Below are positions 423 to 25,455 of a stretch of DNA of 40,932 nucleotides, in pieces. The notes under the pieces are model-generated. The model saw only the letters and a list, made by a program, of their open reading frames with translations, searched no databases and was not told the origin of the DNA. The stretch is from Candidatus Kutchimonas denitrificans (GTDB taxonomy: Bacteria; Gemmatimonadota; Gemmatimonadetes; Palauibacterales; KS3-K002), in the NCBI GenBank assembly GCA_011774835.1, contig JAACAK010000047.1, positions 105,131 through 146,062 of the forward strand, read 5' to 3'. Within the stretch, counting starts at the first letter, position 1. The number at the start of each line of letters is the position of its first letter. A program made the translations under genes and the position numbers.

Positions 423-986
423 TCAGCGTGACAGGCCCAGAGCGCGCGCGGCGCGGTCGCCGCTCCTGGCGTTGGCGCTCTGCTCGGGCCGGTTGGGAAT
501 CAGATCATGACCCAACCGGCGCACCTCATCCGCTATCCTCTCCACCAACTCCGCGAGCCGGTTCTCGATGGGCGGCGAGAGAGCGAGGCCCAGCTCGAGC
601 GTTTCGGGCACCAGGCCCAACAGAATCAAGCGCCGGGGGTAGGCGTCGAGCACCGCCAAGGCGTTGAGCAGATCGGCCACCCCAATCTGATGACAGGAGA
701 GCCTGGCCTGCAACTCCGGCGCCACCTCGTCACCCTCGAGTCGCACGAAGGTGCCCGGCGGCCCGGCGGCTCCGACGGCATCGACCAGGATCACGTCGTC
801 GGTCGATCTGATGTGGGACAGCAAGGCCAGCCCCAGCGTGCCCCCGTCCAGAGCCCGGACCGCCTCCGATATGCGATACCGGAGCCGGAATCGCTCGACC
901 GCCGCCACACCCAGCCCGTCGTCGCCGCAGAGAACGTTGCCCAGCCCGAGAACCAGGACGGATGCCTCGTTGCCAGACGCCGTCAT
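423..986 (-). CDS. hupD: [NiFe]-hydrogenase maturation endopeptidase (HupD/HyaD/HybD family)
   Basis: This 187-residue cytoplasmic protease removes the C-terminal tail of the hydrogenase large subunit after nickel insertion. The glycine-rich N-terminal motif LGLGN (residues 13-17) leads into GDDGLGV. Asp69 (in LVDA) and His99 (in SCHQIG) match the conserved acidic and His nickel-sensing positions of HybD-type proteases. The DGGTLG and LLGLVPE segments are also typical of the family. The ATG at 986 overlaps the TGA of the cytochrome b gene by four bases (ATGA), so translation is probably coupled; it is the last gene of the four-gene hydrogenase operon. Its target is probably the 15-residue tail of the large subunit encoded at 1705-3411. 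The C-terminal 25 residues (about 163-187) are polar and Arg-rich and extend past the usual fold. Confidence 0.93.
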   Translation of the reverse strand: MTASGNEASVLVLGLGNVLCGDDGLGVAAVERFRLRYRISEAVRALDGGTLGLALLSHIRSTDDVILVDAVGAAGPPGTFVRLEGDEVAPELQARLSCHQIGVADLLNALAVLDAYPRRLILLGLVPETLELGLALSPPIENRLAELVERIADEVRRLGHDLIPNRPEQSANARSGDRAARALGLSR

Positions 987-1708
987 CGCTCGCTTCCTGC
1001 CTCTTCCGCTGCCAGGTCTTCCGGCGAAACGAATCGATAGCCCGAGAACATCGACTCGATCGCGGCGTTCTTCGCCGCGCGGGCGACCAGAAGGGCACAG
1101 GAGATGTGGTGTATGATGAACAGGACGATCAGCCACATGCAGACGTGGTGAATCCACCGGGCGGTCTGAACTCCCCCGAACAGCGGCAACAGACCCGCGA
1201 AAATCCGCATCGGCGAGCCCGCACCGGCGCTGACCGCGAACATCGCGTAACCGGTCAGCGCCATCACAATCAGCGTGACATAGACCAGCACGTACGTCAG
1301 TCCGGCCAGGGGATTGTGGCCGACGAATCTCGGGGTCTCGGCACGGAAGAAGATGTAAAACTTCAACCACTCCCACGTCTGCCTCCAGCGACTCTTGCTG
1401 GTCGGGATGAGCTGTTGCCAACGGGCATAGCGATTCCCAACGAACATCCATACGATCCTGGCGATCTCCGACAGGCTGAATACGATCGCGGCGAAGAAGT
1501 GAACGGCCAGCACCGTCGCCATCACGAACTCCTGTCCCGCCGGGTCCGGCGCGACGAGGAACGGATGCCCGATGTAGAACCCCGTAATCGCCAAGACGGT
1601 GATCGATATGGCCAGCAGCCAGTGGGTCAGGCGAACCGGCAGGTCCCAGACATAGACTCGGACCAGCTTGGGTTTAACGGCCGGGGCCGGGGGTGCCACG
1701 GTACTCAT
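983..1708 (-). CDS. hupC: hydrogenase cytochrome b subunit (HupC/HyaC-like)
   Basis: A 241-residue integral membrane diheme cytochrome b that passes electrons from the hydrogenase small subunit to the quinone pool. Four hydrophobic helices are visible. Candidate heme-b ligands are His29 (in LTHW), His70 (in LAVHF), His187/188 (in WIHHV) and His200/201 (in IIHHI), which is the HyaC/HupC pattern of one His in each of the first two helices and a pair in the last. The start chosen is the ATG at 1708, which forms an ATGA overlap with the large-subunit stop. An upstream ATG at 1765 lies inside that gene and would add only a polar, Arg-rich extension. Its presence argues that the hydrogenase is membrane-bound and quinone-linked rather than soluble. 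Confidence 0.9.
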   Translation of the reverse strand: MSTVAPPAPAVKPKLVRVYVWDLPVRLTHWLLAISITVLAITGFYIGHPFLVAPDPAGQEFVMATVLAVHFFAAIVFSLSEIARIVWMFVGNRYARWQQLIPTSKSRWRQTWEWLKFYIFFRAETPRFVGHNPLAGLTYVLVYVTLIVMALTGYAMFAVSAGAGSPMRIFAGLLPLFGGVQTARWIHHVCMWLIVLFIIHHISCALLVARAAKNAAIESMFSGYRFVSPEDLAAEEAGSER

Positions 1709-3411
1709 TGGACCCTCACTTTCACCAACTCGCGACCGGCGCGGTCCACGACATGGACGCCGCACGCCATGCAGGGATCGAACGAGTGCACGGTTCGCAG
1801 GATCTCGATCGGCTGCTCGGCGTCGGCCACCGGGGTGCCTACCAGAGCTTCCTCATACGGCCCGCGCTGGCCAGCGGCATCCCGCGGCCCCGCGTTCCAG
1901 GTGCTGGGCACCACACACTGGTAGTTCGCGATCTCCCCGTCGACGATGTGAACCCAGTGCCCGAGGGCACCGCGCGGCGCTTCGTGGAAGCCCGCTCCGC
2001 TGCATTCCGCTGGCCAGTTGGCCGGATCCCACATCGAGTTGTCGTGGATGTCCAGTTGGCCGCGACCCATGTTGTCGGCCAGCTCGTCGAGCCAGTCCTC
2101 CATCTTCTCCGCCAGGACCAAGGTCTCGATACCCCGGGCCGCCACCCGCCCCAGGGTCGAGAACAAGGCCTCGGGTCCCACGCCGAGCTGGCCGAGAGCG
2201 TAGTTGACCAGCTCCTGCACGCGTGAATGACCCGAGCCGTACGCCACGAGCATGCGTGACAGAGGGCCGACCTCCATCGACAACCCGTCATAGCGCGGCG
2301 ACTTCAGCCAGCTGTACTTCTCATCGGTGTTCAACAGCTCGTACGGCGGCTCGGGCCCGGTGTAATTGGGGCGGGTCTCGCCCGCTGCCGGATGAAGCCC
2401 TTCGCTGTCCCCAGCCTCGTACTCGTACCAGGAGTGGGTAACGAACTCGGTGATCTTCGCCGGATCCATCGGCTCGACATTGCTCAGGTCCCGACTTCGG
2501 ATCACGCCGCGGGGGAGGAAGAGCGGAGCGTTCGAGTCATCGCCTTCCGGGTACTCACCGTAGGCCAGATAGTTGCCCACGCCGGCACCGTAGCCCGCCC
2601 AATCCTTGTAGAACGAGGCCACCGCTAGCAGGTCCGGGATGTAGACCTTCTCCACGAACGCCCGTCCCTCCCTGATCAACTTACGCATCATGGAGATGGA
2701 GGTCATGTTCAGGGACCCTTGCTTGTCGGCATCGAGCGGCGTGGCCATTCCCCCAACCAGGAAACTCTGCAGATGCGGGTTCTTGCCACCGAGTACCGCG
2801 TGGATCCTGATGAAATCCCGCTGCCAGTCGAGAGCCTCCAGGTAATGGGCCACGGCCAGGAGGTTCGCCTCGGGGGGCAGACGATAGGCCGAGTGGCCCC
2901 AATAGGCGTTGGCAAACGGCCCCAGCTGGCCGCGATCGACGAACTGCTGCACGCGCTCCCTCACACCGGCGAAATACGTCGCGCTCGACAGCGGCCAATC
3001 GGAGATCGACTGGGCGAGCCGAGCGGTCGCCGCGGGGTCAGCGGACAGCGCCGAGACGATGTCCACCCAGTCGAGAGCGTGCAGGTGGTAGAAGTGGACG
3101 ACGTGGTCCTGGACCATCTGCGAGGCCATGATCAGGTTGCGCAGCAGCCGCGCGTTCGCTGGCGGCCGGGCACCGATGGCATTCTCCACCGCGCGGATCG
3201 ACGTAATGGCGTGTACCGTGGTGCAGACCCCGCAGATCCGCTGGGTGAAAGCCCAGGCGTCTCTCGGGTCGCGGCCCTTGAGGATGGTCTCGATGCCCCG
3301 AAACATGGTCGAGGAGGACCAGGCGTCCCTCACCACACCGCCATCGACCTCTGTTTCGATCCGCAAGTGGCCCTCGATGCGCGTGATCGGATCGATAACG
3401 ACGCGGGTCAT
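1705..3411 (-). CDS. hupL: [NiFe]-hydrogenase large subunit, group 1 uptake type
   Basis: A 568-residue catalytic subunit carrying the NiFe(CN)2CO site, exported with its small partner. The L1 motif RICGVC (residues 58-63) and the L2 motif DPCMACGVH (545-553) supply the four Cys nickel ligands (C60, C63, C547, C550). RIEGH at residues 11-15 contains the conserved Glu13. The protein ends 15 residues after His553 (tail VVDRAGRELVKVRVQ), the expected substrate for the maturation protease encoded at 423-986. Length and motifs match group 1 membrane-bound H2-uptake enzymes. Its ATG overlaps the small-subunit stop (ATGA) and its own stop overlaps the cytochrome b start. Together with the unusual small subunit this could be one of the high-affinity subgroups, but sequence motifs alone do not settle the subgroup. 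Confidence 0.97.
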   Translation of the reverse strand: MTRVVIDPITRIEGHLRIETEVDGGVVRDAWSSSTMFRGIETILKGRDPRDAWAFTQRICGVCTTVHAITSIRAVENAIGARPPANARLLRNLIMASQMVQDHVVHFYHLHALDWVDIVSALSADPAATARLAQSISDWPLSSATYFAGVRERVQQFVDRGQLGPFANAYWGHSAYRLPPEANLLAVAHYLEALDWQRDFIRIHAVLGGKNPHLQSFLVGGMATPLDADKQGSLNMTSISMMRKLIREGRAFVEKVYIPDLLAVASFYKDWAGYGAGVGNYLAYGEYPEGDDSNAPLFLPRGVIRSRDLSNVEPMDPAKITEFVTHSWYEYEAGDSEGLHPAAGETRPNYTGPEPPYELLNTDEKYSWLKSPRYDGLSMEVGPLSRMLVAYGSGHSRVQELVNYALGQLGVGPEALFSTLGRVAARGIETLVLAEKMEDWLDELADNMGRGQLDIHDNSMWDPANWPAECSGAGFHEAPRGALGHWVHIVDGEIANYQCVVPSTWNAGPRDAAGQRGPYEEALVGTPVADAEQPIEILRTVHSFDPCMACGVHVVDRAGRELVKVRVQ

Positions 3412-4577
3412 GACTGACCTCCCTTCTCTTGATCCGCGGCCCCTTCGGCCTCGGTCGTCGTCGCCTCAGCCCTGGCCGCGGCCGCTTCGGCCCTGGCCGT
3501 GGCCGCTTCAGTCTTCAGCCGCCTTCCGTACTGAACGAAGCCTCCGATCGCATAGGCTGCGGCCACGCCCGCGGTGGCCCACAACCCCACCTTGTCTGCG
3601 GTCGCGTGCACCCCGAATCCCGGCACGCCGGACAGGTGCGCGTAGAAAGGCGTCATCTTGTCCCAGAAGTCCGGTTCGGCGCACCCGATGCAGGGGTGGC
3701 CGCAGCCGACCGGCCAGCTGGTCCCCTCGTTCCAGCCGATCTTCGGGCAGTTCTGGAATGTGACCGGTCCCTTGCAGCCCATCTTATAGAGGCAATAACC
3801 CCGGCGATGCCCCTCATCCCCCCAGTTCTCCACGTACTGACCGGCATCGTAGTGGGCCCTGCGCTCGCAGTTGTCGTGGATCGGCTTGCCATACGCAAAG
3901 AGGGGCCGTCGGTAACGGTCGACGGGCGGCCAACGGCCGAAGGTCATGTAGTAGACGACGACGGCCGCCACGTTCTCGGCGTTGGCGGGACAGGCCGAAA
4001 GGTTGATGAGGTTCCTGAGACCAGGCACTGCATCGCCGACGCTCAGTGCGCCCGTCGGGTTGGGCGCCGCCGCCGGAAGGCCGCCGAACGCGGCGCACGT
4101 GCCGATGGCGAGCGTCGCAGCGGCATCCCCGCACACCTCCTGCGCGATCTGGAGCGCCGATCGGCCACCGATCGTACAGTACGCCCCGTTCGCTCCCGTC
4201 GGAATCGAGCCTTCCACCACGGCGATGTACTCGCCCCGCTTCCCTTCGACCACGCCCGCCCGCGCCTCCTCCGCACGGTGACCAGCCGCCGCCATAATGG
4301 TTTCATGGTAGTCGACCGACAGTATGTCGAGCACGATGTCAGCGGTCGTCGGCCGGGCAGCCCTCAGGAACGTCTCGGTGTTGCCCGCGCAGTCCTGGAA
4401 CTCGAGCCATATCAGCGATGGCTTCTCCTCGGTCTGTAACGCTCGAGCGATACGGGCGCCGGCTTCTCTCGGCATCGCCATGATCGATGCCATCACCCCG
4501 CAGAAACCGAGGAAGTCCCGACGTGATACACCCCGTCGTTCCAGCTCCTCGACGAACCAACTCTCCGACTTTGCCAT
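3408..4577 (-). CDS. hupS: [NiFe]-hydrogenase small subunit with Tat signal and C-terminal anchor
   Basis: A 389-residue electron-transfer subunit. The start is the ATG at 4577, preceded by GGAGGTGAC. The Tat motif SRRDFLGF (residues 18-25) directs export of the folded dimer. Likely cluster ligands: proximal C63, C161, C196; distal H234, C237, C262, C268; medial C277, C296, C299. The usual second proximal Cys is absent: the motif reads D62-C63-A-G-N66 where classical enzymes have C-x-x-C. An extra Cys292 sits in VGCGHPC. A transmembrane helix near residues 331-350 anchors the complex beside cytochrome b. It is followed by a low-complexity Ala/Glu/Arg tail built partly from a 7-residue repeat. 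Actinobacterial-type high-affinity hydrogenases are known to ligate the proximal cluster with three Cys and one Asp, so Asp62 is a candidate ligand here (inference). Confidence 0.95.
   Translation of the reverse strand: MAKSESWFVEELERRGVSRRDFLGFCGVMASIMAMPREAGARIARALQTEEKPSLIWLEFQDCAGNTETFLRAARPTTADIVLDILSVDYHETIMAAAGHRAEEARAGVVEGKRGEYIAVVEGSIPTGANGAYCTIGGRSALQIAQEVCGDAAATLAIGTCAAFGGLPAAAPNPTGALSVGDAVPGLRNLINLSACPANAENVAAVVVYYMTFGRWPPVDRYRRPLFAYGKPIHDNCERRAHYDAGQYVENWGDEGHRRGYCLYKMGCKGPVTFQNCPKIGWNEGTSWPVGCGHPCIGCAEPDFWDKMTPFYAHLSGVPGFGVHATADKVGLWATAGVAAAYAIGGFVQYGRRLKTEAATARAEAAAARAEATTTEAEGAADQEKGGQS
3466..3507. repeat. 21-bp tandem repeat (two copies) in the 3' end of the small-subunit gene
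   Basis: Two head-to-tail 21-bp units (3466-3486 and 3487-3507) differ at two positions. They encode a 7-residue Ala/Arg/Glu repeat in the C-terminal cytoplasmic tail of the hydrogenase small subunit. Being a multiple of three, copy-number change would lengthen or shorten the tail without shifting the frame. Confidence 0.75.
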
Positions 4578-5141
4578 GACGTCACCTCCGTGAGGGCGTC
4601 CTTCGCTTGGAGTGACCGGGTATTGAACGCGCGGTCGCTTCACTCCACACAATCGCCGCCAGCGATGAACGTTCACTTCGCTGGCGCCAGCGAAATCAAA
4701 AACGGACACGACGAAGTCTGACCCGCCAGGCTCTCTGCTTGCGGTCAGGCAGATCTATCCGGAACGGAAACGATTGTTTACTCTCGGCTGCTCACGGTGC
4801 GTGTGTCTCATTCTCCCCGCGAAGCACATGCCAGAGAACCCTTCGGTCCCGATCCTGCCCCTCTACGCCCATTGCCCGTATCGAGATGCCGAACGAGAAC
4901 TGTTTTCGACGTTTTGGTCAGCCCGAGATGTCTCAGCGTGTCCGCAATTGTGGCGAAACGCCCACCTGGGGGCGAGGCACAACGCCCCTCGGGGCGACCT
5001 GTCCAGGGCCGCCACTTCGGAGACGGCTCGGCCGCGCCGGGCCAGACGTTCGGTGACCCCCGTTGACCCCGAGGGCATGCTGACTGCAGAATGGTGGTTC
5101 ATCGGGACAATCCCAACTCAGGCCGAAGGAGGACTGGATCG
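4578..5141. other. 564-base divergent control region between hupSLCD and hypCDE
   Basis: No gene is credible here: ORFs in this stretch lack coding character. It must hold the promoters for the hydrogenase operon (leftward) and hypCDE (rightward). I see several dyads: an 8-bp inverted repeat at 4608-4615/4640-4647 (TGGAGTGA/TCACTCCA), which would lie in the hup leader; a dyad cluster at 4657-4694; and CGCCCC-TC-GGGGCG at 4983-4996. I could not find a convincing sigma-70 or sigma-54 promoter by eye. Confidence 0.7.
4657..4694. promoter_or_regulatory. cluster of dyads upstream of hupS, candidate operator
   Basis: An 18-bp perfect palindrome, TTCGCTGGCGCCAGCGAA, occupies 4677-4694. The half-site CGCCAGCGA recurs at 4657-4665, and between them lies the 10-bp palindrome TGAACGTTCA (4666-4675). 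Three copies of the same 9-mer in 38 bases, about 80-117 bases before the hupS ATG, look like a dimeric regulator's binding array. This is inferred from symmetry alone; no regulator gene is adjacent. Confidence 0.45.
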
Positions 5142-5435
5142 ATGTGTCTCGGCGTACCCGGTCAGGTGGTGGAGGTCAACGGTCTCGTAGCGAGCGTAGA
5201 TTTCTGGGGCGTGCGTCGCGAGGTCCGTCTCGACATCGTTGACCAGCCGGTGGAGCCGGGCGATTACATCCTCAATCACGTCGGCTTCGCCATTCGCAAG
5301 ATCCCTGCGGAGGAGATCGAAGAGACCCTCGCACTCTATGAAGAGCTGCTCCAGGCGGCGGAGAGCGACATGATGTCGGCCGATGTCCACGGCGAGCTCG
5401 AGGCCACGGCTCCGGAGGGCGACGGACATGACTAG
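5142..5435 (+). CDS. hypC: hydrogenase maturation chaperone HypC
   Basis: A 97-residue cytoplasmic chaperone that shuttles the Fe(CN)2CO unit from HypD to the apo large subunit. It begins MCLGVPG; the Cys after the start Met is the essential iron and large-subunit contact of the family. The ATG at 5142 is preceded by GAAGGAGG at a good distance. A longer version from 5091 would bury the essential Cys and is rejected. The C-terminal portion (AESDMMSADVHGELEA) extends a little past the usual 75-90 residues. It overlaps hypD by 8 bases, so the pair is probably co-translated. It is first of a hypC-hypD-hypE operon divergent from hupS. Confidence 0.95.
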   Translation: MCLGVPGQVVEVNGLVASVDFWGVRREVRLDIVDQPVEPGDYILNHVGFAIRKIPAEEIEETLALYEELLQAAESDMMSADVHGELEATAPEGDGHD

Positions 5436-6573
5436 CGTGGGCACCAGTAAGATCAGCGGGCAGGCGAAGGAGCTGAAATTCCGCGACCCTGCCCAGGCCC
5501 GAGCGCTCTCCGCTCGCCTCGCCGGGTTGTGCGACGAGATCGGTCGCGAATCGGTCCAGGTGATGCACGTCTGTGGTAGCCACGAGCAGGCGATCGCCCG
5601 TTACGGTCTTCGTGCCGTTCTGCCGAAGACCCTCGACCTGATCATGGGCCCCGGCTGCCCCGTCTGCGTCACCGACATGCCGGAAGTCGATGAGGCGGTC
5701 GTGCTGGCCGTGGACGGCGCGTTGATCGCGACCTACGGCGACATGGTCCGGGTGCCCGGAACGGCGAAATCGCTGGCCGACGCGGCGTCGGAAGGGGCGC
5801 GGGTCGAGGTGGTCTACAGCGCATCGCAGGCGGTCGAGCTGGCGCGCTCCTGCGAGGCCGAGGTCGTCTTCTTCGCCACGGGCTTCGAGACCACGGCGGT
5901 GGCGACCGCGGCGATCGTGCTCCAGGACGATCTTCCGCCCAACTTCTCGATTCTGTCCGCCCACAAGTACGTGCCGCCGGCGATGGAGATCGTGGCCCGG
6001 ATCCCGGAGACGCGGGTCGAGGGGTTCCTGGCGGCAGGCCATGCGGCGACGATCACCGGTTGGGGCCTGTTCGAGGATTTCGTCGACCGTTACGGCCTGC
6101 CGGTGGTCGTCGCCGGGTTCGAGCCCCTCGACATCCTGGCCGGGCTGGTGCGGCTGGTCGAGCTGATCCGCGACGGCCAGGCGAAGGTGGAGAATATGTA
6201 TCCCCGCTGCGTCACGCGTGAGGGCAACACGGTAGCCCAGGACCAGATGTGGCGGGTGTTCCGAACCGCGAGCGGCATGTGGCGCGGGATCGCCGACATC
6301 CCCAACGGCAACCTGCGGCTGCGAGAGGAGTTCGCTCATCTGGACGCACGCGCGCGCTTCGATATCGACACCCGGCGACTGCGCGCCCACGTGCCCTCCA
6401 AACTCACCGAGCGCTGCATTTGCGGAACGATCATGTCGGGACTGGCGCTACCCACCGACTGCGAGCTGTTCGGGAAGGAGTGCGATCCCGAGAACCCCGT
6501 CGGCGCCTGCATGGTGAGCAGCGAAGGGACCTGTAAGATCTGGCATCAATACGGCGGCCATCCCGAGCTATGA
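5428..6573 (+). CDS. hypD: hydrogenase Fe-site assembly protein HypD
   Basis: A 381-residue [4Fe-4S] protein that, with HypC, assembles the Fe(CN)2CO moiety. The ATG at 5428 lies inside the hypC end. Diagnostic motifs are HVCGSHE near the N-terminus, GPGCPVC, and the Cys-rich C-terminal block (CICG, ECD, GACMVSSEGTC) that ligates the iron-sulfur cluster. FATGFETT and AGHAATITG are further conserved HypD segments. Length is as expected for the family. Its stop overlaps the hypE start (ATGA at 6570-6573). Confidence 0.97.
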   Translation: MTSVGTSKISGQAKELKFRDPAQARALSARLAGLCDEIGRESVQVMHVCGSHEQAIARYGLRAVLPKTLDLIMGPGCPVCVTDMPEVDEAVVLAVDGALIATYGDMVRVPGTAKSLADAASEGARVEVVYSASQAVELARSCEAEVVFFATGFETTAVATAAIVLQDDLPPNFSILSAHKYVPPAMEIVARIPETRVEGFLAAGHAATITGWGLFEDFVDRYGLPVVVAGFEPLDILAGLVRLVELIRDGQAKVENMYPRCVTREGNTVAQDQMWRVFRTASGMWRGIADIPNGNLRLREEFAHLDARARFDIDTRRLRAHVPSKLTERCICGTIMSGLALPTDCELFGKECDPENPVGACMVSSEGTCKIWHQYGGHPEL

Positions 6574-7622
6574 GCGACCGGGTCGGCGAGAAGTACGGCG
6601 TTCTGGGCGAGCGGGTGACGCTGAAGCACGGCGCGGGCGGCCGCGCCATGCGAATGCTCATCGAGGACAAGCTCGCCGCGGGTTTCGCCCCGTTGGCCGA
6701 CGGCGAGATCGGGCTGGCGGCGATGGACGACGGCGCCGCCTTTCGCCTCGGCGATGGCTGGCTCGTCGTCACCACCGACTCTCACGTCATCCATCCCGTG
6801 TTCTTCCCCGGCGGCGACATCGGGCGGCTGGCCGTGGCCGGAACGGTCAACGACCTGGCGGTGATGGGGGCCACCGATGTGCTGGGTCTCACCTCCGCGA
6901 TGGTGATCGAGGAGGGTTTCCCGCAATCCGATCTGGAGCGAATTCAACGTTCGATGCAGGAGACCTGCCAGGAGGCCGGCGTAACGATCGTCACCGGCGA
7001 CACCAAGGTGATGGGAAAGGGGGAGCTGGACGGCATCATCATCAACACGACGGGCGTAGGGCTGGCCGAGTCGATCGTGTCGGACAGCGGGCTCAATCCG
7101 GGCGACCGGATCGTGCTCACCGGTCCCATCGGCGAGCACGGAATCGCCTTGATGGCGGCGCGTCGGGGCCTCGGGCTCGAGGGCGACCTGCGATCCGACG
7201 TCGCGCCCATCAACGATCTGATCCGCACCGCCCGTGGCGCCGCCGACGGCTCGATCGTCGCCATGAAGGACCCGACCCGCGGTGGCCTCGCCAGCGCGCT
7301 CACCGAGATGGCGGAGAAGAGCGGCGTCGGCATCGTCATCGACGAAGCGTCGGTCCCGGTCACCGACGTGGTCCGGGCCGCCGCCGAGATCCTCGGCCTC
7401 GACCCCTTCCACATCGCCAACGAGGGGAAGGCGGTCATCGGCGTCCGTCCCAACGCCGCCGACGCCGTGCTGACCGCGCTGCGTTCTAACCCGCAAGGCA
7501 AGGACGCTGCGATTGTCGGCACCTGCATCGATGAGCATCGGGGCCGCCTGATCCTCGATACCGGCTTCGGTCGCCGGCTGGTCAGCGAGCCGGAGGGCGA
7601 GCCGTTACCGCGGATCTGTTGA
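6570..7622 (+). CDS. hypE: hydrogenase cyanide-ligand synthesis protein HypE
   Basis: A 350-residue PurM-like ATPase that dehydrates a carbamoyl group on its C-terminal Cys to a thiocyanate, the source of the CN ligands. The protein ends exactly in PRIC (residues 347-350), the obligatory carrier tail. The N-terminal LKHGAGGRAM and the DPTRGG segment are typical of the AIRS/HypE fold. The ATG overlaps the hypD stop. Its stop faces the stop of hypF across 12 bases, so the two hyp transcription units converge here; I see no clear terminator in the gap. Confidence 0.97.
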   Translation: MSDRVGEKYGVLGERVTLKHGAGGRAMRMLIEDKLAAGFAPLADGEIGLAAMDDGAAFRLGDGWLVVTTDSHVIHPVFFPGGDIGRLAVAGTVNDLAVMGATDVLGLTSAMVIEEGFPQSDLERIQRSMQETCQEAGVTIVTGDTKVMGKGELDGIIINTTGVGLAESIVSDSGLNPGDRIVLTGPIGEHGIALMAARRGLGLEGDLRSDVAPINDLIRTARGAADGSIVAMKDPTRGGLASALTEMAEKSGVGIVIDEASVPVTDVVRAAAEILGLDPFHIANEGKAVIGVRPNAADAVLTALRSNPQGKDAAIVGTCIDEHRGRLILDTGFGRRLVSEPEGEPLPRIC

Positions 7623-7634
7623 CCAGGTCGATAC

Positions 7635-9911: not shown

Positions 9912-9912
9912 A

Positions 9913-10584: not shown

Positions 10585-10923
10585 TCACTCCACTTCCAGG
10601 TAGCTCACCTGCAGGCTCTGCCCGCCTGTCACGCCCCGGGCCACCGATCCGCAGTCCGGACATTCGAACGGTGCCGCCCGCACCTCGAATTGCACCTCGC
10701 ACGACAAACACGCCGCCACGCCCGGCTCCCGCTCGATCTCGATCGCCACGTCGCCATGCCGCTCCTTCAGCACCACTTCCAGGCAGAAACGCAGGGTATC
10801 GACCTCCACGCCCGAGAACGCCCCCACCTGCACGCCCAGACCCGTGAGCCGGCTCTCCGGCGCATGGGCCAGCTCGCGCTCGCAGATCCCACCGATCTCC
10901 AGGGCCAGCGCCATCTCGTGCAT
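10585..10923 (-). CDS. hypA: nickel metallochaperone HypA
   Basis: A 112-residue protein starting MHEMALA; His2 and Glu3 belong to the N-terminal nickel site. Four Cys in two CxxC pairs (C72/C75, C88/C91) form the structural zinc site. The start at 10923 is fixed by the required N-terminal MHE and a preceding GGAGAGG; an upstream ATG at 10989 would add 22 residues and destroy the nickel site. The gene leads the hypABF run and lies 166 bases downstream of a ZIP-type metal transporter gene on the same strand. Confidence 0.95.
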   Translation of the reverse strand: MHEMALALEIGGICERELAHAPESRLTGLGVQVGAFSGVEVDTLRFCLEVVLKERHGDVAIEIEREPGVAACLSCEVQFEVRAAPFECPDCGSVARGVTGGQSLQVSYLEVE

Positions 10924-15717: not shown

Positions 15718-16397
15718 TCCCTCGGCCTGAGGTAATAGACCTTTGGCTCCGTCCCCAGGTCCTCCATCACGCGGAATGCCCGCGGGTCCTCTTTGAGCTC
15801 GTGGACGCGATGGTTCGGGTTGTCGAGGTCGCCAAAGGTGATCGCTCCAGCGGGACAGATCTCCGCGCAGGCGGGCTGGTAATCTTCCTCCCTCAGCTCG
15901 CGCCCTTCGGCGGCCGCGTCCTCACGGGCCTTCTGCAGTCGGTGATGACAGAACGTGCACTTCTCTATTACACCTTTTGGACGGACCGACACATCCGGAT
16001 TCAGGTGCTGACGCTCCGATTCCGACCACTCGGGGTCATACCAGTTGAAGTACTTTACCGTGTAGGGACAGGCGTTGGCGCAGTAGCGACATCCGATACA
16101 GCGCGCATAGATCTGACCGACGATGCCTTCCTCATCGATGTACGTCGCACGCACTGGACACACCTTGATGCAGGGCGGATTGTCACAGTGCAGACACGGA
16201 CGAGGGAAGAAAAGAAGGCGCGTTTCGGGGAACTCGCCCTCGAGCTCGGTTTCCACTTTCATCCAGCTCAGCGCGCGTCCCATGTCCGCCTGTTCTGCCG
16301 AGACCGTCGGTATGTTGTTCTCGCTCTTGCACGCCACCTCGCACGCGGCGCAGCCGGTGCAGCGGTCGAGGTCGATCACCATTCCCCAGCGTGGCAT
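15714..16397 (-). CDS. four-cluster ferredoxin-like electron transfer subunit
   Basis: A 227-residue iron-sulfur protein of the PsrB/NrfC/QrcC type. Sixteen Cys fall in four groups: C13/C16/C19/C23, C68/C71/C76/C80, C100/C103/C106/C110 and C147/C150/C177/C181. That is enough for four [4Fe-4S] clusters wiring the large subunit to the NrfD-type subunit. There is no signal peptide; such subunits are usually carried out through Tat by the partner large subunit. The ATG at 16397 (MPRWGMVIDL) is chosen because the family starts just before its first cluster; an ATG at 16529 would add 44 Cys-containing residues of no family character. It lies 10 bases after the molybdopterin-family gene and overlaps the NrfD gene. 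Confidence 0.93.
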   Translation of the reverse strand: MPRWGMVIDLDRCTGCAACEVACKSENNIPTVSAEQADMGRALSWMKVETELEGEFPETRLLFFPRPCLHCDNPPCIKVCPVRATYIDEEGIVGQIYARCIGCRYCANACPYTVKYFNWYDPEWSESERQHLNPDVSVRPKGVIEKCTFCHHRLQKAREDAAAEGRELREEDYQPACAEICPAGAITFGDLDNPNHRVHELKEDPRAFRVMEDLGTEPKVYYLRPRE

Positions 16398-16407
16398 CTT
16401 CCGCCCC

Positions 16408-18765: not shown

Positions 18766-18781
18766 AGCCGTTTCTCCCCGC

Positions 18782-19363
18782 CTAGCGATGGCAGGCGTTG
18801 CAGTCGAGCGTTGCCCCCTGCTCGCGATGGCAGTCCATACAGAAGTCCATCGTCACATTCACCAGCGCTCTCTTCGGCGGCCGCTTGGTGCTCGCGATCG
18901 CGCCGTGGCAGTTCTGGCACTCGAGCTCGGCGATTCCCACGTGCCTGCGGTGGGTGTAAAAGACGTGATCGGGAAGCCGGAAGAGCTTGTTGAAGCGAAG
19001 CGAATCACCCTGCTCGATAAGCTCCGTTACGCGGGCTGCTTCCTCCGAAGTTCCCTGCCGCCTCGAGTGGCACATCGAACACGTCCTGACGTCCGGCAAC
19101 CCGGCGTGTGCGCCAGCCGTCACGTACTTGTGACAGAACTCACAGTTCAGCCCGAGCTGCTCGGTGTGCTTCTGGTGATTGAATTCGACGGGTTGGGGAA
19201 CGGCGGGAACCCGCTGGGCCAGGAGAAGCGAGGATACGGCGACCACCACGATCACCAGACCGACAAACACCAGGTGCCAGCGGCGAAAAGTCAGGGCGCC
19301 AGCCCTTCCGGAGACGTCGGGTCCTGGCGGTTCTGACGGTGATCCACTTCCAGTCCGATCCAT
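18782..19363 (-). CDS. membrane-anchored pentaheme cytochrome c (QrcA/ActA-like)
   Basis: A 193-residue protein with a Gly/Pro/Ser-rich cytoplasmic N-terminus, one transmembrane helix (about residues 30-50) and a periplasmic domain with five CxxCH sites: C74-H78, C95-H99, C149-H153, C175-H179 and C188-H192. FNHQKH and YTHRRH are typical extra His ligands of the c7/c3-like fold. Five hemes plus one N-terminal anchor is the ActA plan of alternative complex III; QrcA of Desulfovibrio has six. It heads the five-gene operon and probably accepts or delivers electrons at the periplasmic face. The ATG is at 19363. Confidence 0.93.
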   Translation of the reverse strand: MDRTGSGSPSEPPGPDVSGRAGALTFRRWHLVFVGLVIVVVAVSSLLLAQRVPAVPQPVEFNHQKHTEQLGLNCEFCHKYVTAGAHAGLPDVRTCSMCHSRRQGTSEEAARVTELIEQGDSLRFNKLFRLPDHVFYTHRRHVGIAELECQNCHGAIASTKRPPKRALVNVTMDFCMDCHREQGATLDCNACHR

Positions 19364-19694: not shown

Positions 19695-20915
19695 TCAGCG
19701 GGTGCCCGCCACCGTCTGGAAGAAGGCGGCGAGATCGGCCATTTCGTCGGCGCTGAAGGTGGGCCAGGGCAGCTCCCGTTCCTCCATGGCGGCTTCCATG
19801 ACCATCGAGTGGTTCCAAACCGCGGCGATGAGAGCGGCAGAGGACTCGATGTGGGTCAACTGCGAGAAATCGACGGCGATATCTCCGCCGCGACCTTCCA
19901 GCGAATGACAGCCCAGACAGCGCTTTTCCTCCAGGTGCCGACGGCCCCGAGCCGAGTTACCCGACTCCGCGAAATAGCGGACGGAGTAGAGGTAGGCGAC
20001 GATGTCGGCCATCTCGACGGCGCCGACCTGGGGTACCGACACACCGCGGCGCTCCATCGCGCCCATCATCGCCGGCGCCTTGTTCCACATCGCCACCGCG
20101 AATTCCATCAAGCCCCTGTGCAGTTCGCGCTGAGCCAGGTCGCCGCCGATCCCGCCACCGCGTCCGGCGACGCCATGGCATTCGATGCATCGCTTCTCCA
20201 CGAAGATGACGCGGCCATCGGAGGGGCGGCCTGGAAGAACGTAAACGTCACCATCGAGGGATTCCGACGAGACCGACTCGAGATAGGAGATCAGGGCGGC
20301 GAGTTCGGAGCTGCTGAAGGTCGGGCGTTCGAGTCCTCGCGCTTCCATCGCTTCGGCCATCGCCGGGCCATGGTTCCACATCGCGGCAGCGACCAGAATC
20401 GGTGAGCCGTACTGTCCCACGAAATCGAGATTCGGCCCGATCACGCCGCCCCGCGAGCCGATCTGGTGGCAGACGATGCACTTCTTTTCACGGAACAGCT
20501 CTTTGCCGCGGGCAACGTCGCCGGGCGGATCGAAGTACCCGATGGTGAACAGGAACGCCACCAGATCCGCAGCCTCCGAGGCGTTCAACTCCTCCAGCTC
20601 GATCCCGAGCTCCTGCATCCGCTGGCTCATGATGGGGAGGTGGTTCCACATCGTCGCGGCGAACTCCTGGATCGTGCGGTGCCGTGAGCTCCGAGCCAGA
20701 TCGGGCCCCACGTCACCCCCCAGCCCGTCCACCGCGTGGCAATTGACGCAACCCCGCGAGCCGAAGATCTGAGCCCCGCGCAGCGGGTTCTGAGTCGTGG
20801 TGACGGACTCCTGTCCCAATGCCGGCAACGGACACCCGATGAGCAGAACGCCCACCAGAGCTGTAGTGTGACGCAACCGAAGTGCTAGGGGCCCTCTCCG
20901 TGGTTGGCTCGCCAT
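19695..20915 (-). CDS. tetraheme cytochrome c of four tandem mono-heme modules, paralogue
   Basis: A 406-residue exported cytochrome; the signal peptide ends near PALGQ (about residue 35). Heme sites C56-H60, C146-H150, C243-H247 and C333-H337 are spaced about 90 residues apart. Each module carries a (M/V)WNH or MWNK motif followed by a Met-rich M...M segment and an AD(L/I)(V/A)A(F/Y)L helix. It shares the plan of the cytochrome at 13103-14341 but is clearly diverged. The ATG at 20915 follows GGGAGGGCGG. It stands alone between the outer-membrane conduit genes and the Qrc-like operon, so a role as carrier between the two is reasonable (inference). Confidence 0.9.
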   Translation of the reverse strand: MASQPRRGPLALRLRHTTALVGVLLIGCPLPALGQESVTTTQNPLRGAQIFGSRGCVNCHAVDGLGGDVGPDLARSSRHRTIQEFAATMWNHLPIMSQRMQELGIELEELNASEAADLVAFLFTIGYFDPPGDVARGKELFREKKCIVCHQIGSRGGVIGPNLDFVGQYGSPILVAAAMWNHGPAMAEAMEARGLERPTFSSSELAALISYLESVSSESLDGDVYVLPGRPSDGRVIFVEKRCIECHGVAGRGGGIGGDLAQRELHRGLMEFAVAMWNKAPAMMGAMERRGVSVPQVGAVEMADIVAYLYSVRYFAESGNSARGRRHLEEKRCLGCHSLEGRGGDIAVDFSQLTHIESSAALIAAVWNHSMVMEAAMEERELPWPTFSADEMADLAAFFQTVAGTR

Positions 20916-21295: not shown

Positions 21296-22129
21296 TCACG
21301 GCTCGCCCGGGACTGAGAAGTGACAGAACAGGCAGAGACCCCGATTCTTCGAACGCAGCTTCTCTGCATCGAAGCCGGGGCCATGCGGGTTCACTCTCCG
21401 ACCGAAGCGCGCCGAATGGCATTGCAGACAGTCCTGCTGAGCATGGCACGAAGCACAGGCTTCGAGACCCTGCCTGGCAGCCTGGCCGTGTCCGAGCACG
21501 AAATTCTGGTTCTCGTTATGGAACCCCGTCACGGTGCTGCCATCCCGGGACGCGTAACCCAGGGTCGTGTGGCAGCTGCGGCAAAACACCTCTGGATTGT
21601 GACAGCTCGTGCACTCCGCTTCCTGGTTCCAGGCCGCCGCCGAGTGTATCTGCAGGAAGTTCATCGGGTGGTAGAGCTCGGGAGCGTTCGAATCCCTTGG
21701 CCGTTCCAGCGTCTCCGAACCCAGATGGCAGCTCTGGCACTGCTGCTCCACCACGTGGCAGACGCTGCAGCTCGCCGTGGCGCTGGCCGCCGCCGCTTGA
21801 TGGCCCTCCAGGAAGAACGGCGTATGGGTCGGCGGCGCCGGCCACTCGCGGCTCGCCACGTAGGCGGCCGCATCCGGATCCGAGCTGAGCCCCTGGATCT
21901 CCGGGACGTCATACTCGTTCACGTGGCAGCGTGTGCAATACTCGCGAGCGTGACACACATCGCACAGCTGTGCGTTGGCTTGAGCGTCCTTCCCGTGAGT
22001 GCGCCACCACTCGCTGTCGTGGGATTCTGGCGCCGCGGTCTCCCCGGTCTGAGCCACGCCGTACCCGGCATCGGCCGCAAGCATCCCGGCAACCAGCAGC
22101 GCCCCTAGTGTTGTACGGAAGAAGCTCAC
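21296..22129 (-). CDS. periplasmic nonaheme cytochrome c (MtrA-like role proposed)
   Basis: A 277-residue exported protein with nine CxxCH motifs at residues 56, 65, 121, 131, 173, 183, 225, 234 and 266. Eight of these are in four close pairs 9-10 residues apart, the last is single. The signal peptide covers about residues 1-26 (LGALLVAGMLAADAGYGVAQ). The start is the GTG at 22129, which overlaps the porin-gene stop (GTGA) and follows GGAGGGTGCC; a longer start at 22186 lies inside the porin gene. About one heme per 30 residues and the length are close to MtrA (ten hemes, about 300 residues). Tight coupling to the beta-barrel gene suggests it plugs that barrel as the transmembrane heme wire. 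That role is inferred from operon structure, not from recognised homology. Confidence 0.88.
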   Translation of the reverse strand: MSFFRTTLGALLVAGMLAADAGYGVAQTGETAAPESHDSEWWRTHGKDAQANAQLCDVCHAREYCTRCHVNEYDVPEIQGLSSDPDAAAYVASREWPAPPTHTPFFLEGHQAAAASATASCSVCHVVEQQCQSCHLGSETLERPRDSNAPELYHPMNFLQIHSAAAWNQEAECTSCHNPEVFCRSCHTTLGYASRDGSTVTGFHNENQNFVLGHGQAARQGLEACASCHAQQDCLQCHSARFGRRVNPHGPGFDAEKLRSKNRGLCLFCHFSVPGEP

Positions 22130-23676
22130 GGCACCCTCCCCGGTTCCGAACCTAGATAGTAAGACAGCCCGAACGCGAGCCGCCACTGCGTCCAGTCCGG
22201 CTGGCTCGGGTCGTCCTCGATGTCACCGTCGATGCGTCGGTCATGTCGGTAGCGATCCACCGAAGCCCATATCGTCCCGGCCGGGGTCCGCCACCGGGCA
22301 TCGCCTCCGATGGCCCAGATTCGCCCCTCACCGACGCGGAATTCACCCAGTTGTTGGGAGGCGCTCAGGCGCAGTCCCACCGATAGCCTGTCACGCGGGC
22401 TCACCCCGATCCGCAGGTCGCCCGAGCTGACCGCGCTGCCGAACCCCCAGTTGAGCCAGTAGTTTCCACTTACGTCCCAGACCCTGTTGAAGGCGTTCGG
22501 CCGCCAACCCACCGAGCCGCCGACCCGCCAGTCACGGTCCGTGGTGGCGAAGAACCCGATCTCCGCCTCCGTATCGGAGTACGAGCGGCGCTCGCCCCAG
22601 AGCCTGAGCGAGACGTCGCTGCGCGGCTCCACCCCCACCGACAGATTCCAGCCGGTGTAAGGCACCGGGCTGAAGGCCACCCAGATCGTCTGCAGGCTGA
22701 AAACCGGCCGGTAACGGAAGAGTCTGCCCTGAAGGTAGATCTTGTCGTTCGCCCAGTAGCCGACGTTCAGTCCCGCCTTGCCCCAGAGGCCGGTGGCCAG
22801 GTCGAAGTCGGTATGGGCCAACAGGGAGAGCTCGCGCCTCGGGTACCAGGCGGCTTCGATGGCCACCCGTTCGCTGGTAATGCCATCGCGGTCGGTCGGG
22901 ATCTCCCGCTGGTAGATCGCCTCGATCGACGAGTTCGCCGTCGGTCGCACCGACCCGCGGAACCCGAACAGGTAATCCCGCTCCGGCGGCTGGAACACGC
23001 CCAGCGAGCCGAACTCGTCCGAGGTGATCGAAATGGGCACACCCCGGGCCAGCCCCCATCCACCGTAGGCCTCGACCTCTACGTTCCAGGGCCTGTACCG
23101 GTAGAGGAACGAGCCACCGTCGTATCCATAGTAGCCCAGGCCGCTCACCTGATAGTCCCGACCAACGCGAGCTCGAAACGATCGACGATTGAGCTCGACG
23201 TAGCCCGCGAGCAAATCGAAGTGCTCGTCACCACGCGGCCAGAACTCGTCGTTTCCGAACGTCGCGTCCGAGAAATCGTTCCTGAAGCGGGTGCTCACGT
23301 AACCACGCAGCCCCTCGATTCCAAACCCGAAGACGTTCAGGTCGACATCGACGACCGCCGGCGAGCTGTTCGCGACCTCGCCGGAGCGGTAGAAGAAGCA
23401 GTACGTCTCGCCCGACGTGCAGGTGACGATCGTGTCGCCCTTGGTCCGCTGAGTGCCCGTACCGCCTACGGTAGACTCCAGGGCACTGTCGCGGACGAGC
23501 GCACGAGCCTCGATATACTGCACGCGTGTGGAGACGCGGGCTCGCCATTGCTGTGCGAACAGCTCGGTCGCGCTCCAGCTACACCAGGCCAGCGTCACGC
23601 CGAGGAACGCGACCCCGGTTCGCCAGCTCCCGAGTCGAGCCACACGGTGCATCGGAGATAGGCTTGTGAGCCTCAC
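22126..23676 (-). CDS. outer-membrane beta-barrel protein of a porin-cytochrome conduit
   Basis: A 516-residue protein starting at the GTG at 23676 behind GGGAGGAAAAC. The signal peptide ends near ELFAQ (about residue 41). The rest alternates short amphipathic strands rich in Tyr, Trp, Arg and Gly with polar turns (for example YGYDGGSFLYRYRPW, RVWDVSGNYWLNWGFG), ending LAFGLSYYLGSEPGRVP, a typical barrel pattern. A Cys pair, C86 and C93, sits in an early loop. It is flanked by a nonaheme lipoprotein gene upstream and overlaps a nonaheme periplasmic cytochrome downstream, the composition of MtrCAB and Geobacter porin-cytochrome complexes. It is shorter than MtrB (about 700 residues), so fewer strands are expected. 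The barrel call is secure; the conduit role is inference from neighbours. Confidence 0.82.
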   Translation of the reverse strand: MRLTSLSPMHRVARLGSWRTGVAFLGVTLAWCSWSATELFAQQWRARVSTRVQYIEARALVRDSALESTVGGTGTQRTKGDTIVTCTSGETYCFFYRSGEVANSSPAVVDVDLNVFGFGIEGLRGYVSTRFRNDFSDATFGNDEFWPRGDEHFDLLAGYVELNRRSFRARVGRDYQVSGLGYYGYDGGSFLYRYRPWNVEVEAYGGWGLARGVPISITSDEFGSLGVFQPPERDYLFGFRGSVRPTANSSIEAIYQREIPTDRDGITSERVAIEAAWYPRRELSLLAHTDFDLATGLWGKAGLNVGYWANDKIYLQGRLFRYRPVFSLQTIWVAFSPVPYTGWNLSVGVEPRSDVSLRLWGERRSYSDTEAEIGFFATTDRDWRVGGSVGWRPNAFNRVWDVSGNYWLNWGFGSAVSSGDLRIGVSPRDRLSVGLRLSASQQLGEFRVGEGRIWAIGGDARWRTPAGTIWASVDRYRHDRRIDGDIEDDPSQPDWTQWRLAFGLSYYLGSEPGRVP

Positions 23677-23863
23677 GTTTTCCTCCCGGATCCCGGATAA
23701 GTTGGTGGGCACGAGGATCTGGCCAGCCCAAAGCGACGCCGCGAGCAAACGGACTCCGCCCAAGCTGGCTCGGTGTGACGAGCCGGAGATTCTGTCATCG
23801 GCGGCAGGCACGGCCGTTTCACTCGACGTCTGACCTCACCGGCAACGCGGTGGGCCGCGGCCC

Positions 23864-23889: not shown

Positions 23890-23910
23890 GAGCCGGCGTC
23901 CAGCTCAAGC

Positions 23911-25455
23911 CTACGGGGTCAAGTTGTAGCGGTCGATCAACGCCTGAATCGACGCTTCGAGCAACTGTTTCACGAAGTCCGGGTTGTGGACCCCACCACC
24001 GCTCGTCTTGTGCGTGTCATACTCGATGCCATCCGGGATGCCATCCGGCGGCTCACTTTCGTCTTCACCGGCCAGCCCCTCGTAGAAGATGGCCCCGGCG
24101 AAATAGTCGCGCTCCGAGGTGTGAGCAATCTGTGCGTTCCAAAAAACACCCTCGGCGACGGTAATCACGTCATCACGATTGTCGAAATCGAGCGTATCGG
24201 CGGCGTTCGAGAAGGCACGCGCCACAACCATGGGAATGAGCCCGGCATCCGTCGGATCCACCACGTTGTCGTCGTCCGAGTCGACCCACAGCTGGTCCAG
24301 CAGCACGCTGATCGAATCACGGTTCGCGACGAACAGGGTGCGTGCCTCGGACTCGCTGTTATGGCAACCCGCGCAGGCGCGGAAGTCACGCTCCGCCAGC
24401 GCGCAATCTGTGCCCGGCGCCGTGGGTATCCCCTCGGCATCCAGGCAGGGGATCGCCTCGAAGGTATGGCCTACCGACTGGAAGACGAAATCTCCCGTCG
24501 CCGGATCCGTGACTTCGAACGGGACCACGTGACAGGTGATACAGAGCTCCTCGTTGATCGCCGGGTTGCCGTGGGCGGGCGGCTCCGGGCCGTCAAAGTC
24601 CGCCGGTAGCCAGCCGATGTCGGTCTGCAGCAGCAGCAACCCCTGCGCGCCATGGGCGCCGTGGGTCGACGGCGGCGTGCCCCGCCTCGCATGGCACCTG
24701 ATGCACAGGTGGTCGACTGACGCCACATCGACGGGCGCCCGCAGCTCGTGCTCGAACTCGCTGCCGTGCGAGTCGTGGCAGACGACGCAGAAGATCGACT
24801 GGGTTTCGGCGCCGTCTTTCTCCAGATAATTACCCCGGTCCGAGAACTTGATCTCCAGCGCCCTCCGACCCTCGTGGCAGTCGGCGCAGCCCTCTCGGCC
24901 CCGGGCGAAGGACGACGTGTTGCCGTGGGCCGACACGCTCCACTGCTCCACGAACGGATGGTGCGTCCCGGCATGACACTCGCCACAACCGGTGGTCGCT
25001 TCGGTGTCCGCCAGGACCGAGCAGAGCGGCGCGGTCGCCACCGACGGATTGTTCACGTGCTCGAATCCCGATCCGTGGCACGACTCGCACTGGACGTCCA
25101 GATATCGCTCGTCCCCGGTCGCTACCCACCCGGCGTCACCCTCGGCCGGGTTGCCCAGCTCGGACACCGTGTGGCAACCCTCGCAGAACTCCGCCGCGTG
25201 GTCGCTCGACTGCAGACCTGCCCAGGCCACGGAGTGGAGGTGTCCTCTCCACTCGCCCAGGAACGTCGCGTGGCAGTTCCCGCAGCTGGGCAACTTGTCC
25301 GCCGGGTCACCGACGTAGCCCAGGAACCGGTTGATCGTGTCTGTCGGCTGGTCGAAGGCCGGGCGCTCGACAAACACCTCGTCATCGGTGCATGCCCCCA
25401 GCGAGACAGCCAGCACAGCCACCAGCGGCAGCAGGAGCGTAGCTCTGTGATTCAC
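23911..25455 (-). CDS. nonaheme lipoprotein cytochrome c, probably at the outer membrane surface
   Basis: A 514-residue protein starting at the GTG at 25455 behind GGAGGCGCCT. The lipoprotein signal ends in LGAC with the acylated Cys at residue 22, followed by Thr-Asp-Asp. Nine CxxCH sites lie at residues 58, 91, 123, 157, 190, 223, 251, 305 and 361. The C-terminal 150 residues are heme-free, with acidic, possibly calcium-binding stretches (DSDDDNVVDPTD, about 392-403; PDGIPDGIEYD) and GVHNP at 488-492, a motif seen at the end of several multiheme cytochromes. It heads a run of lipoprotein cytochrome, porin and periplasmic cytochrome. By analogy with MtrC and OmcB it would be the external electron-exchange subunit. 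A periplasm-facing orientation is possible, since the sequence cannot show which leaflet it occupies. Confidence 0.88.
   Translation of the reverse strand: MNHRATLLLPLVAVLAVSLGACTDDEVFVERPAFDQPTDTINRFLGYVGDPADKLPSCGNCHATFLGEWRGHLHSVAWAGLQSSDHAAEFCEGCHTVSELGNPAEGDAGWVATGDERYLDVQCESCHGSGFEHVNNPSVATAPLCSVLADTEATTGCGECHAGTHHPFVEQWSVSAHGNTSSFARGREGCADCHEGRRALEIKFSDRGNYLEKDGAETQSIFCVVCHDSHGSEFEHELRAPVDVASVDHLCIRCHARRGTPPSTHGAHGAQGLLLLQTDIGWLPADFDGPEPPAHGNPAINEELCITCHVVPFEVTDPATGDFVFQSVGHTFEAIPCLDAEGIPTAPGTDCALAERDFRACAGCHNSESEARTLFVANRDSISVLLDQLWVDSDDDNVVDPTDAGLIPMVVARAFSNAADTLDFDNRDDVITVAEGVFWNAQIAHTSERDYFAGAIFYEGLAGEDESEPPDGIPDGIEYDTHKTSGGGVHNPDFVKQLLEASIQALIDRYNLTP

Follow-up and report, generated by a model that had tools for sequence, protein, structure and literature searches.

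The stretch analyzed here (the window) comprises 40,932 nucleotides from the Gemmatimonadota bacterium Candidatus Kutchimonas denitrificans (GCA_011774835.1, contig JAACAK010000047.1). Our subject is a gene island at 423 to about 25455 of the window, which encodes an uptake [NiFe]-hydrogenase with its maturation proteins, an NrfD-type quinone complex resembling alternative complex III (ACIII), several multiheme cytochromes, and a candidate porin-cytochrome conduit through the outer membrane. The source metagenome-assembled genome (MAG) measures 3.76 Mb in 149 contigs and is 86.6% complete, and the right end of the window is the end of its contig C10. The island opens on the minus strand with hycI, hupC, hupL, and hupS, continues on the plus strand with hypC, hypD, and hypE, and from there lies entirely on the minus strand, through hypF, hypB, hypA, a membrane protein gene, cytochrome genes, the NrfD-type complex, and the conduit genes. 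It also extends past the left edge of the window, where a gene for a 19-heme/cytochrome b protein is found. The features within the window are as follows (genomes, contigs, loci, and families are cited by our own handles, beginning with G, C, L, and f).

423..971, minus strand: hydrogenase maturation protease, HycI/HupD type (PF01750, 91 bits)
983..1765, minus strand: hydrogenase b-type cytochrome, HupC/HyaC type (PF01292; TIGR02125 at 169.7 bits, cut-off 121.5)
1705..3411, minus strand: [NiFe]-hydrogenase large subunit (PF00374, 783 bits; the sole match in the genome)
3408..4709, minus strand: [NiFe]-hydrogenase small subunit (PF14720, PF01058; TIGR00391 at 409.6 bits, cut-off 179.5)
5091..5435, plus strand: HypC (PF01455)
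5383..6573, plus strand: HypD (PF01924)
6570..7622, plus strand: a protein that we take to be HypE from its domains (PF00586/PF02769) and gene position
7635..9911, minus strand: HypF (PF22521, PF17788, PF07503)
9913..10581, minus strand: HypB (PF02492, CobW/HypB/UreG)
10585..10989, minus strand: HypA (PF01155); the true start is probably at about 10926
11090..11830, minus strand: multi-pass membrane protein by its hydrophobic segments, presumably ZIP-transporter-like, with a counterpart at the same spot in G166 (L048, 78%)
12002..12433, minus strand: small tetraheme cytochrome c, second copy (4 CxxCH)
12626..13021, minus strand: small tetraheme cytochrome c (4 CxxCH, PF14522/PF09699)
13103..14344, minus strand: string of four monoheme class-I cytochrome c domains, tetraheme ActE-like (PF00034, 4 CxxCH)
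14338..15717, minus strand: NrfD-family membrane subunit D, ActC-like (6f0k_C 220 bits, 6btm_C 200 bits)
15714..16400, minus strand: iron-sulfur (FeS) subunit C, like the C-terminal part of ActB and like QrcC (6f0k_B 213 bits, 6btm_B 166 bits)
16408..18765, minus strand: molybdopterin-family subunit B with an RR-type N-terminus (PF00384/PF04879; four-cysteine cluster motif kept)
18782..19363, minus strand: pentaheme cytochrome subunit A, ActA/QrcA-like (6lod_A 87.6 bits, 6btm_A 72.7 bits; one N-terminal hydrophobic segment)
19695..20915, minus strand: second string of four monoheme class-I domains (PF00034 in four stretches; beside the conduit in relatives)
21296..22186, minus strand: nonaheme cytochrome right after the porin, in an MtrA-like position (9 CxxCH; accompanies the porin in relatives)
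22126..23811, minus strand: outer-membrane beta-barrel candidate, the putative conduit porin (beta-amphipathicity); the true start is probably at about 23712
23911..25701, minus strand: nonaheme cytochrome, surface-lipoprotein candidate (9 CxxCH, lipobox-like SLGAC); the true start is probably at about 25455

An earlier note on this DNA had counted 39 CxxCH motifs in seven proteins, and our motif count reproduced that number exactly: nine in each of the two nonaheme cytochromes (23911-25701 and 21296-22186), five in the pentaheme subunit (18782-19363), and four in each of the proteins at 19695-20915, 13103-14344, 12626-13021, and 12002-12433. By way of background, the 186 open reading frames (ORFs) of at least 80 amino acids hold only two other such motifs, found singly in HypF and the FeS subunit. 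The Pfam and NCBIfam matches listed above likewise bear out the note's uptake [NiFe]-hydrogenase with six hyp genes. Its four tetraheme carriers are present insofar as four proteins have four CxxCH motifs each, but these turn out to be two small tandem tetrahemes and two strings of monoheme domains. An assembly artefact within the window is unlikely because the gene order beyond the lipoprotein gene is repeated in the related genome G158: three genes past the lipoprotein (window 25839-26414, a transporter, and the next gene) have look-alikes there in the same order, likeness being judged by eye from the translations. The G158 counterpart of this region contains one extra 9-heme gene.

The hydrogenase is of the group 1 membrane-bound uptake type, with the large and small subunits and the b-type cytochrome partner all present. 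The C-terminal hydrophobic stretch of the small subunit has a 19-residue mean of 1.58, against a threshold of 1.6 in the segment scan. In an alignment of 19 small-subunit rows, those of the window and of G158 (two loci) read C-A-G-N at the proximal-cluster motif, where the 16 other rows (13 genomes) read C-T-G-C, so that Asn stands in place of one canonical ligand cysteine. Enzymes of subgroup 1d, which are O2 tolerant and have a six-cysteine proximal cluster, are defined by two extra cysteines around that cluster; with C-A-G-N and one ligand Cys lost, the window's enzyme would probably fall outside this subgroup. A Cys-to-Asp change is found in group 1h enzymes. The window and G158 small subunits (the latter at L091:7907-9010) also share an additional cysteine (EVC) that is absent from the 16 other rows. 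In a tree of 19 large subunits, those of the window and G158 form one branch, separate from the other Gemmatimonadota enzymes.

The NrfD-type complex had been described as Qrc/ACIII-like. The genes are indeed those of a quinone complex, but the membrane subunit is nearer to ACIII than to Qrc. Homologs of ActA, ActB (split), and ActC are all present, and the best solved relatives of subunits A, C, and D are ACIII chains (6btm_C is named "Alternative Complex III subunit C" in the PDB match listing). No ActD or ActF was recognized among the genes at 12 to 21 kb, and no genome search aimed at them was made. The top NCBIfam models for three of the subunits are QrcA, QrcB, and QrcC, and all four subunits missed the Qrc equivalog cut-offs (A at 97.8 of 180 bits, B at 294.8 of 440, C at 325.3 of 400, and D at 34.7 of 570); subunit D also matched the DsrP model, at 106 bits with a cut-off of 350. 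There was no Qrc structure among the PDB matches, so likeness to ACIII and likeness to Qrc are not comparable there. Because subunit D is ActC-like and all four cut-offs were missed, Qrc was dropped as a name for the complex. The ActC-like membrane subunit favors quinol oxidation as the probable activity. The 16 cysteines of FeS subunit C are sufficient in number for four clusters. The arrangement is well conserved: subunits B, C, and D and the four-domain cytochrome follow one another in each of the 13 named relative loci (a single locus is cut inside that cytochrome), and A precedes B in 11 of the 13, the other two (L042 and L044) being cut inside B at a contig end.

Subunit B raises the question of whether this complex is instead an enzyme with a substrate of its own, an oxyanion or a sulfur compound, with the island serving another reductase or oxidase. 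The solved structure closest to subunit B is that of a thiosulfate/polysulfide reductase (157 bits, compared with 42 bits for the molybdopterin-like part of ActB), and the four-cysteine cluster motif of subunit B is kept in 15 of 15 covering rows (13 distinct genomes), while QrcB is reported, in the excerpted text of one paper, to be without a redox cofactor (PMC13059093). We nevertheless consider such an enzyme very unlikely, given the ACIII matches of subunits A, C, and D among solved structures and the set of five-heme and four-heme cytochromes, which fits an electron relay. Furthermore, no cysteine of subunit B aligns with the position that we take to hold the molybdenum-ligand cysteine of that reductase. 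Asp can replace the molybdenum-ligand Cys, as it does in nitrate reductases.

The putative outer-membrane part of the island centers on the porin candidate, which has no Pfam or NCBIfam match. Its strand amphipathicity (z 5.5) is the highest of 22 proteins tested, with the first 60 residues omitted, and 24 relative porin ORFs (22 genes) range from z 1.6 to 5.6; this amphipathicity and the neighborhood are the only positive evidence for a barrel. An AlphaFold model from a two-row alignment had a pLDDT (predicted local distance difference test) of 30 and was not used. The porin-cytochrome gene set claimed by the earlier note is supported in that an ORF with at least five CxxCH motifs lies within about 1.5 kb of the porin at all 30 of the best porin loci, the window's included. 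A lipobox-like motif was found in 13 of 18 relatives of the lipoprotein cytochrome, by a loose pattern for which some matches are spurious and some misses look lipobox-like by eye. On the periplasmic side, the two small tetrahemes (12002-12433 and 12626-13021) form a tandem pair with 79% identity, and the copy at 12626..13021 is probably a periplasmic carrier. Only one tetraheme copy is present at this spot in G158, G166, and G184. The two four-domain cytochromes have CxxCH motifs spaced 90 to 97 residues apart and are 37% identical to each other.

About 0.5 kb to the left of the window, near the hydrogenase protease gene, lies the gene for the 942-amino-acid protein mentioned above (G000:C10:101814-104642; L097:15815-18643). 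Its 19 CxxCH motifs and C-terminal HydC/FdnI-type cytochrome b correspond to the architecture of CbcL/MtoC/MtrH; the cytochrome b part matches PF01292 at 33.8 bits (cut-off 30.1) and TIGR01583 below its cut-off. Across the 249 Gemmatimonadota genomes that we surveyed, CbcL-like relatives (E value of 1e-80 or better) occur in 31, of which 17 also have the porin, and in 12 of these 17 the two genes lie within 30 kb of each other. In two genomes of genus g32 (G065:C10 and G202:C15), in which the porin was not found, the CbcL-like gene and a hydrogenase are 24 to 28 kb apart. A heavy-metal P-type ATPase gene and what reads like an ArsR-type regulator gene adjoin the 19-heme gene in both the window's genome (L097:12727-15356) and G166 (L048:11068-13655).

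The pairing of hydrogenase and conduit recurs well beyond this one genome. PF00374 matches were found in 74 of the 249 genomes, and the 44 with a match above 300 bits were counted as having a strong [NiFe]-hydrogenase, the 30 genomes with only weaker matches being excluded from the co-occurrence count. Porin relatives are present in 70 of the 249 genomes, the window's own counted: in 37 of the 44 strong-hydrogenase genomes and 33 of the 205 others (Fisher P of 6e-18, uncorrected for relatedness). In 10 of these 37 genomes (G000, G024, G097, G125, G130, G169, G178, G203, G204, and G209), hydrogenase and porin lie on one contig no more than 21 kb apart. The ten span nine genera in families f1, f2, f4, and f9, and the binomial tail for random placement is 6e-10 (2.4 Mb) or 1e-11 (3.6 Mb), a calculation that treats non-independent genomes as independent. 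As a control, COX1 genes in the same 37 genomes (122 places over the cut-off) were within 21 kb of the hydrogenase in none; the nearest were those of G130 (24 kb) and G024 (35 kb), and since only places over the cut-off were taken, one in G012 at 31.5 bits and about 9 kb from the hydrogenase was omitted.

The arrangements of the linked loci are varied. G130 has its conduit genes flanked by hup on one side and hypCDE on the other, in G204 the gene for the lipoprotein cytochrome and hupS diverge, and in G203 hupSL comes after the conduit genes. A Rieske protein and cytochrome b are encoded between hydrogenase and porin in G178 and G209. G125 has its large-subunit gene in two pieces, with an ext9-like ORF beside hupS, and the linked enzyme of G097 seems to be of a different type, with 41% and 36% identity and with FeS and NrfD-type genes after its own. 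In the tree of 19 large subunits, which covers 9 of the 10 linked enzymes and leaves out that of G097 and those of the remaining unlinked genomes, linked and unlinked enzymes are scattered (7 changes; the mean after shuffling is 6.6). Apparent genes for V-type ATPase subunits are found near the hydrogenase in G204, G209, and G169 (L058, L077, and L080).

The closest relatives of the island, in family f1, indicate how its parts have been combined. G158, G166, and G184 share the series tetraheme, four-domain cytochrome, nonaheme, porin, lipoprotein, without the ACIII-like insert, although the four-domain cytochrome of G166 aligns in pieces only. Hyp genes and conduit follow the window's order in G166 (hypABF) and G184 (hypABFEDC), and G158 has the same conduit order with hypABFED. 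These three single-scaffold MAGs contain runs of exactly 100 N (L045-L047, L050, L051, L053, and L091), because of which their long-range gene order is unreliable. In G166 and G184 (91% and 87% complete; L048 and L046), there is no N run from the hyp genes to the 19-heme gene and one at the 5' part of the lipoprotein gene. In G158, 100-N runs flank both sides of the piece carrying hupSLC-hypC, which breaks off within hypD; its end agrees with the beginning of the hyp-conduit piece at 158 of 168 bases. Hup therefore likely adjoins the hyp-conduit piece there as well, to judge from this overlap; the apparent distance of 777 kb between hydrogenase and conduit, for a piece bounded by N runs and with an overlapping end, was not accepted, and G158 was counted as unlinked. 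Upstream of the G166 lipoprotein cytochrome, across a 100-N gap, lie a CtaG-type oxidase-assembly gene (PF09678) and, in the same stretch (L047:16889-18876), two genes apparently for SCO and PCu(A)C copper chaperones.

The ACIII-like block is more than 1 Mb from the porin on the G158 and G166 scaffolds and is near the conduit only in the window and in L041 (JACQHC010000109.1, from groundwater). In the latter, the ACIII-like block stands with the conduit genes and those for Rieske/cytochrome b, a four-domain cytochrome, and a tetraheme; nothing in its 21.7 kb matches the window's hydrogenase. Because of the gene orders in G158, G166, and G184, the simplest reading would be that the window's lineage acquired the ACIII-like block by insertion, and that the hydrogenase module can disappear from a genome that retains its conduit. 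The modules are thus combinable, not one inseparable operon. The hydrogenase-conduit linkage does recur in relatives, so the absence from all of them that the earlier note had named as a refutation did not occur; the note's picture of one chain, taken as a fixed unit, is not supported, as the ACIII/Qrc-like module is apart from the conduit in two family members and the structural genes of the hydrogenase were not found in two that keep the conduit.

Taking these observations together, we regard it as an even call that the locus is an outward, H2-fed extracellular electron transfer system built of exchangeable modules. In such a system, HupSL would oxidize H2 on the periplasmic side and pass electrons via its cytochrome b to menaquinone; the quinol would be reoxidized by the ACIII-like complex with its tetraheme ActE-like cytochrome, by the CbcL-like 19-heme protein, or by both. 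The small tetrahemes and the second four-domain cytochrome would carry the electrons through the periplasm to the nonaheme-porin-nonaheme lipoprotein conduit and onward to an outside acceptor, which might be ferric or manganese oxide, humics, or a partner cell. We infer the electron order, the outward direction, the acceptor, expression, and the outer-membrane place of the porin and lipoprotein from the genes and their neighbors. A broader statement, which we offer tentatively, is that Gemmatimonadota possess a recurring, reshuffled module for dedicated respiration from H2 to extracellular acceptors, in which an uptake [NiFe]-hydrogenase and its maturation set stand beside the conduit, together with an exchangeable quinol oxidase of the ACIII-like, Rieske/cytochrome b, or CbcL-like kind, the f1 enzyme having an unusual Asn-containing proximal-cluster motif.

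The direction of flow is the first point on which this proposal may be questioned. Electrons could move inward, the donor being Fe(II), a mineral, or a partner cell, and reach the periplasmic cytochromes and then an oxidase, or the quinone pool through a reversed CbcL-like or ACIII-like complex, with the hydrogenase as an independent second donor. CbcL/MtoC-type proteins are described from Fe(III) reducers and Fe(II) oxidizers alike with no clear distinguishing feature (PMC6295460), and Qrc, to which subunits A to C are closest in NCBIfam, is reported to reduce menaquinone from periplasmic cytochromes (PMC13059093). The genome also has four long COX1-family genes, and the CtaG gene of G166 lies upstream of the lipoprotein cytochrome, though across a scaffold gap. 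Several features nonetheless favor outward flow as the predicted direction, and inward uptake seems to us unlikely: the membrane subunit is ActC-like rather than QrcD-like; Rieske/cytochrome b, usually a quinol oxidizer, is near the same conduit in other members (G178, G209, and L041); and the window has a candidate surface-lipoprotein cytochrome, whereas PCC4 and MtoAB/PioAB are reported to be without an extracellular one (PMC5566968).

A second set of observations weighs against the proposed chain as a whole. No PF00374 match was found in genomes G166 and G184, though conduit, tetraheme, CbcL-like, and hyp genes are kept, and the conduit is therefore not H2 dependent there. Almost half of the porin genomes (33 of 70) have no strong hydrogenase, and 7 of the 44 hydrogenase genomes have no porin. 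Hydrogenase and porin share a scaffold but are 80 kb apart in G063, 205 kb in G104, 2.4 Mb in G075, and, nominally, 777 kb in G158 (in the remaining 23 of the 37 genomes they are on different contigs, which is little informative), and unrelated genes lie between them in G097, G209, and G125. Six of the 10 genomes with a close B subunit have the porin, and the window alone has both within 1 Mb on one contig. Only 4 genomes have the CbcL-like gene no more than 30 kb from a strong hydrogenase match. A two-row profile of the porin candidate drew no PDB match above noise. Finally, the COX1-family genes of the source genome, possibly including nitric oxide reductases, mean that the H2 electrons could go to oxygen.

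It could thus be that hydrogenase and conduit are neighbors that share no chain, the former feeding an aerobic chain and the latter serving other donors, with genes for c-type cytochromes and metal centers clustering in an energy island. The oxidases, the conduits of G166 and G184, the many porin genomes lacking a strong match, and the ACIII-like modules distant from the conduit in G158 and G166 (where the long-range scaffold order is unsure) count in favor of this explanation. We think it improbable in view of the strong co-occurrence of hydrogenase and porin and of their lying no more than 21 kb apart, in varied arrangements, in 10 of the 37 genomes, compared with 0 of 37 for COX1.

Gemmatimonadota are common in soils and sediments. 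If the H2-fed, outward system proposed here is real, H2 use would be tied to extracellular respiration in a large, mostly uncultured phylum of soil, sediment, and groundwater, and the hydrogenase-conduit locus would serve as a gene marker for H2-fed extracellular respiration. It would also suggest that the inner-membrane quinol oxidase is interchangeable and the conduit constant. The pairing in related bacteria suggests that they may respire minerals or other outside acceptors with hydrogen. H2 use is recorded for desert soil bacteria, and H2-driven Fe(III) respiration is physiologically known, for example, from Geobacter (PMC7894505). Among the literature matches listed, which are mostly open-access papers seen in part and include no preprints, there was no description of hydrogenase and porin-cytochrome genes as one recurring locus and none of such a system assigned to Gemmatimonadota.

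Comparison with known systems places each part of the island in familiar company. QrcABCD shares the gene order A-B-C-D with the window's complex; it differs in that QrcA has six hemes where the window's subunit A has five, the window's D is ActC-like, and its B keeps the cluster motif. The nearest published makeup that we found is cluster 4 of the MBNT15 bacterium SHF-111, where ActABCD and a four-heme ActE-like cytochrome, away from oxidase genes, are proposed for iron reduction; the available part of that description mentions no adjacent hydrogenase or porin (PMC9386147). In the window, by comparison, B and C have a gene each, and neither ActD nor ActF was recognized at the locus. CbcL, MtoC, and MtrH resemble the 19-heme protein in the fusion of a multiheme c domain to a HydC/FdnI-like cytochrome b. 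Their homologs have 3 to 23 heme motifs, include one listed from Gemmatimonadetes, and are thought to act in both directions, according to the excerpted source (PMC6295460); the gene near the window is distinguished by its 19 hemes and its place adjoining a hydrogenase. The Hyb uptake hydrogenase of Geobacter sulfurreducens, required for growth on H2 with Fe(III) citrate, represents the same physiology as proposed here but has a different makeup, HybSABLP, and the excerpt mentions no gene linkage to a porin-cytochrome cluster (PMC7894505). MtrCAB, PCC, OetABI, and PCC3/PCC4 are like the window in combining a porin and multiheme cytochromes in one gene cluster, OetABI likewise having, besides its porin, a cytochrome in the periplasm and a cytochrome lipoprotein at the surface (PMC10553843). 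Unlike these known conduits, that of the window has a porin without a PDB match and stands in linkage with [NiFe]-hydrogenase and hyp genes. In sum, the parts are of known kinds, and their recurrent combination is the new point.

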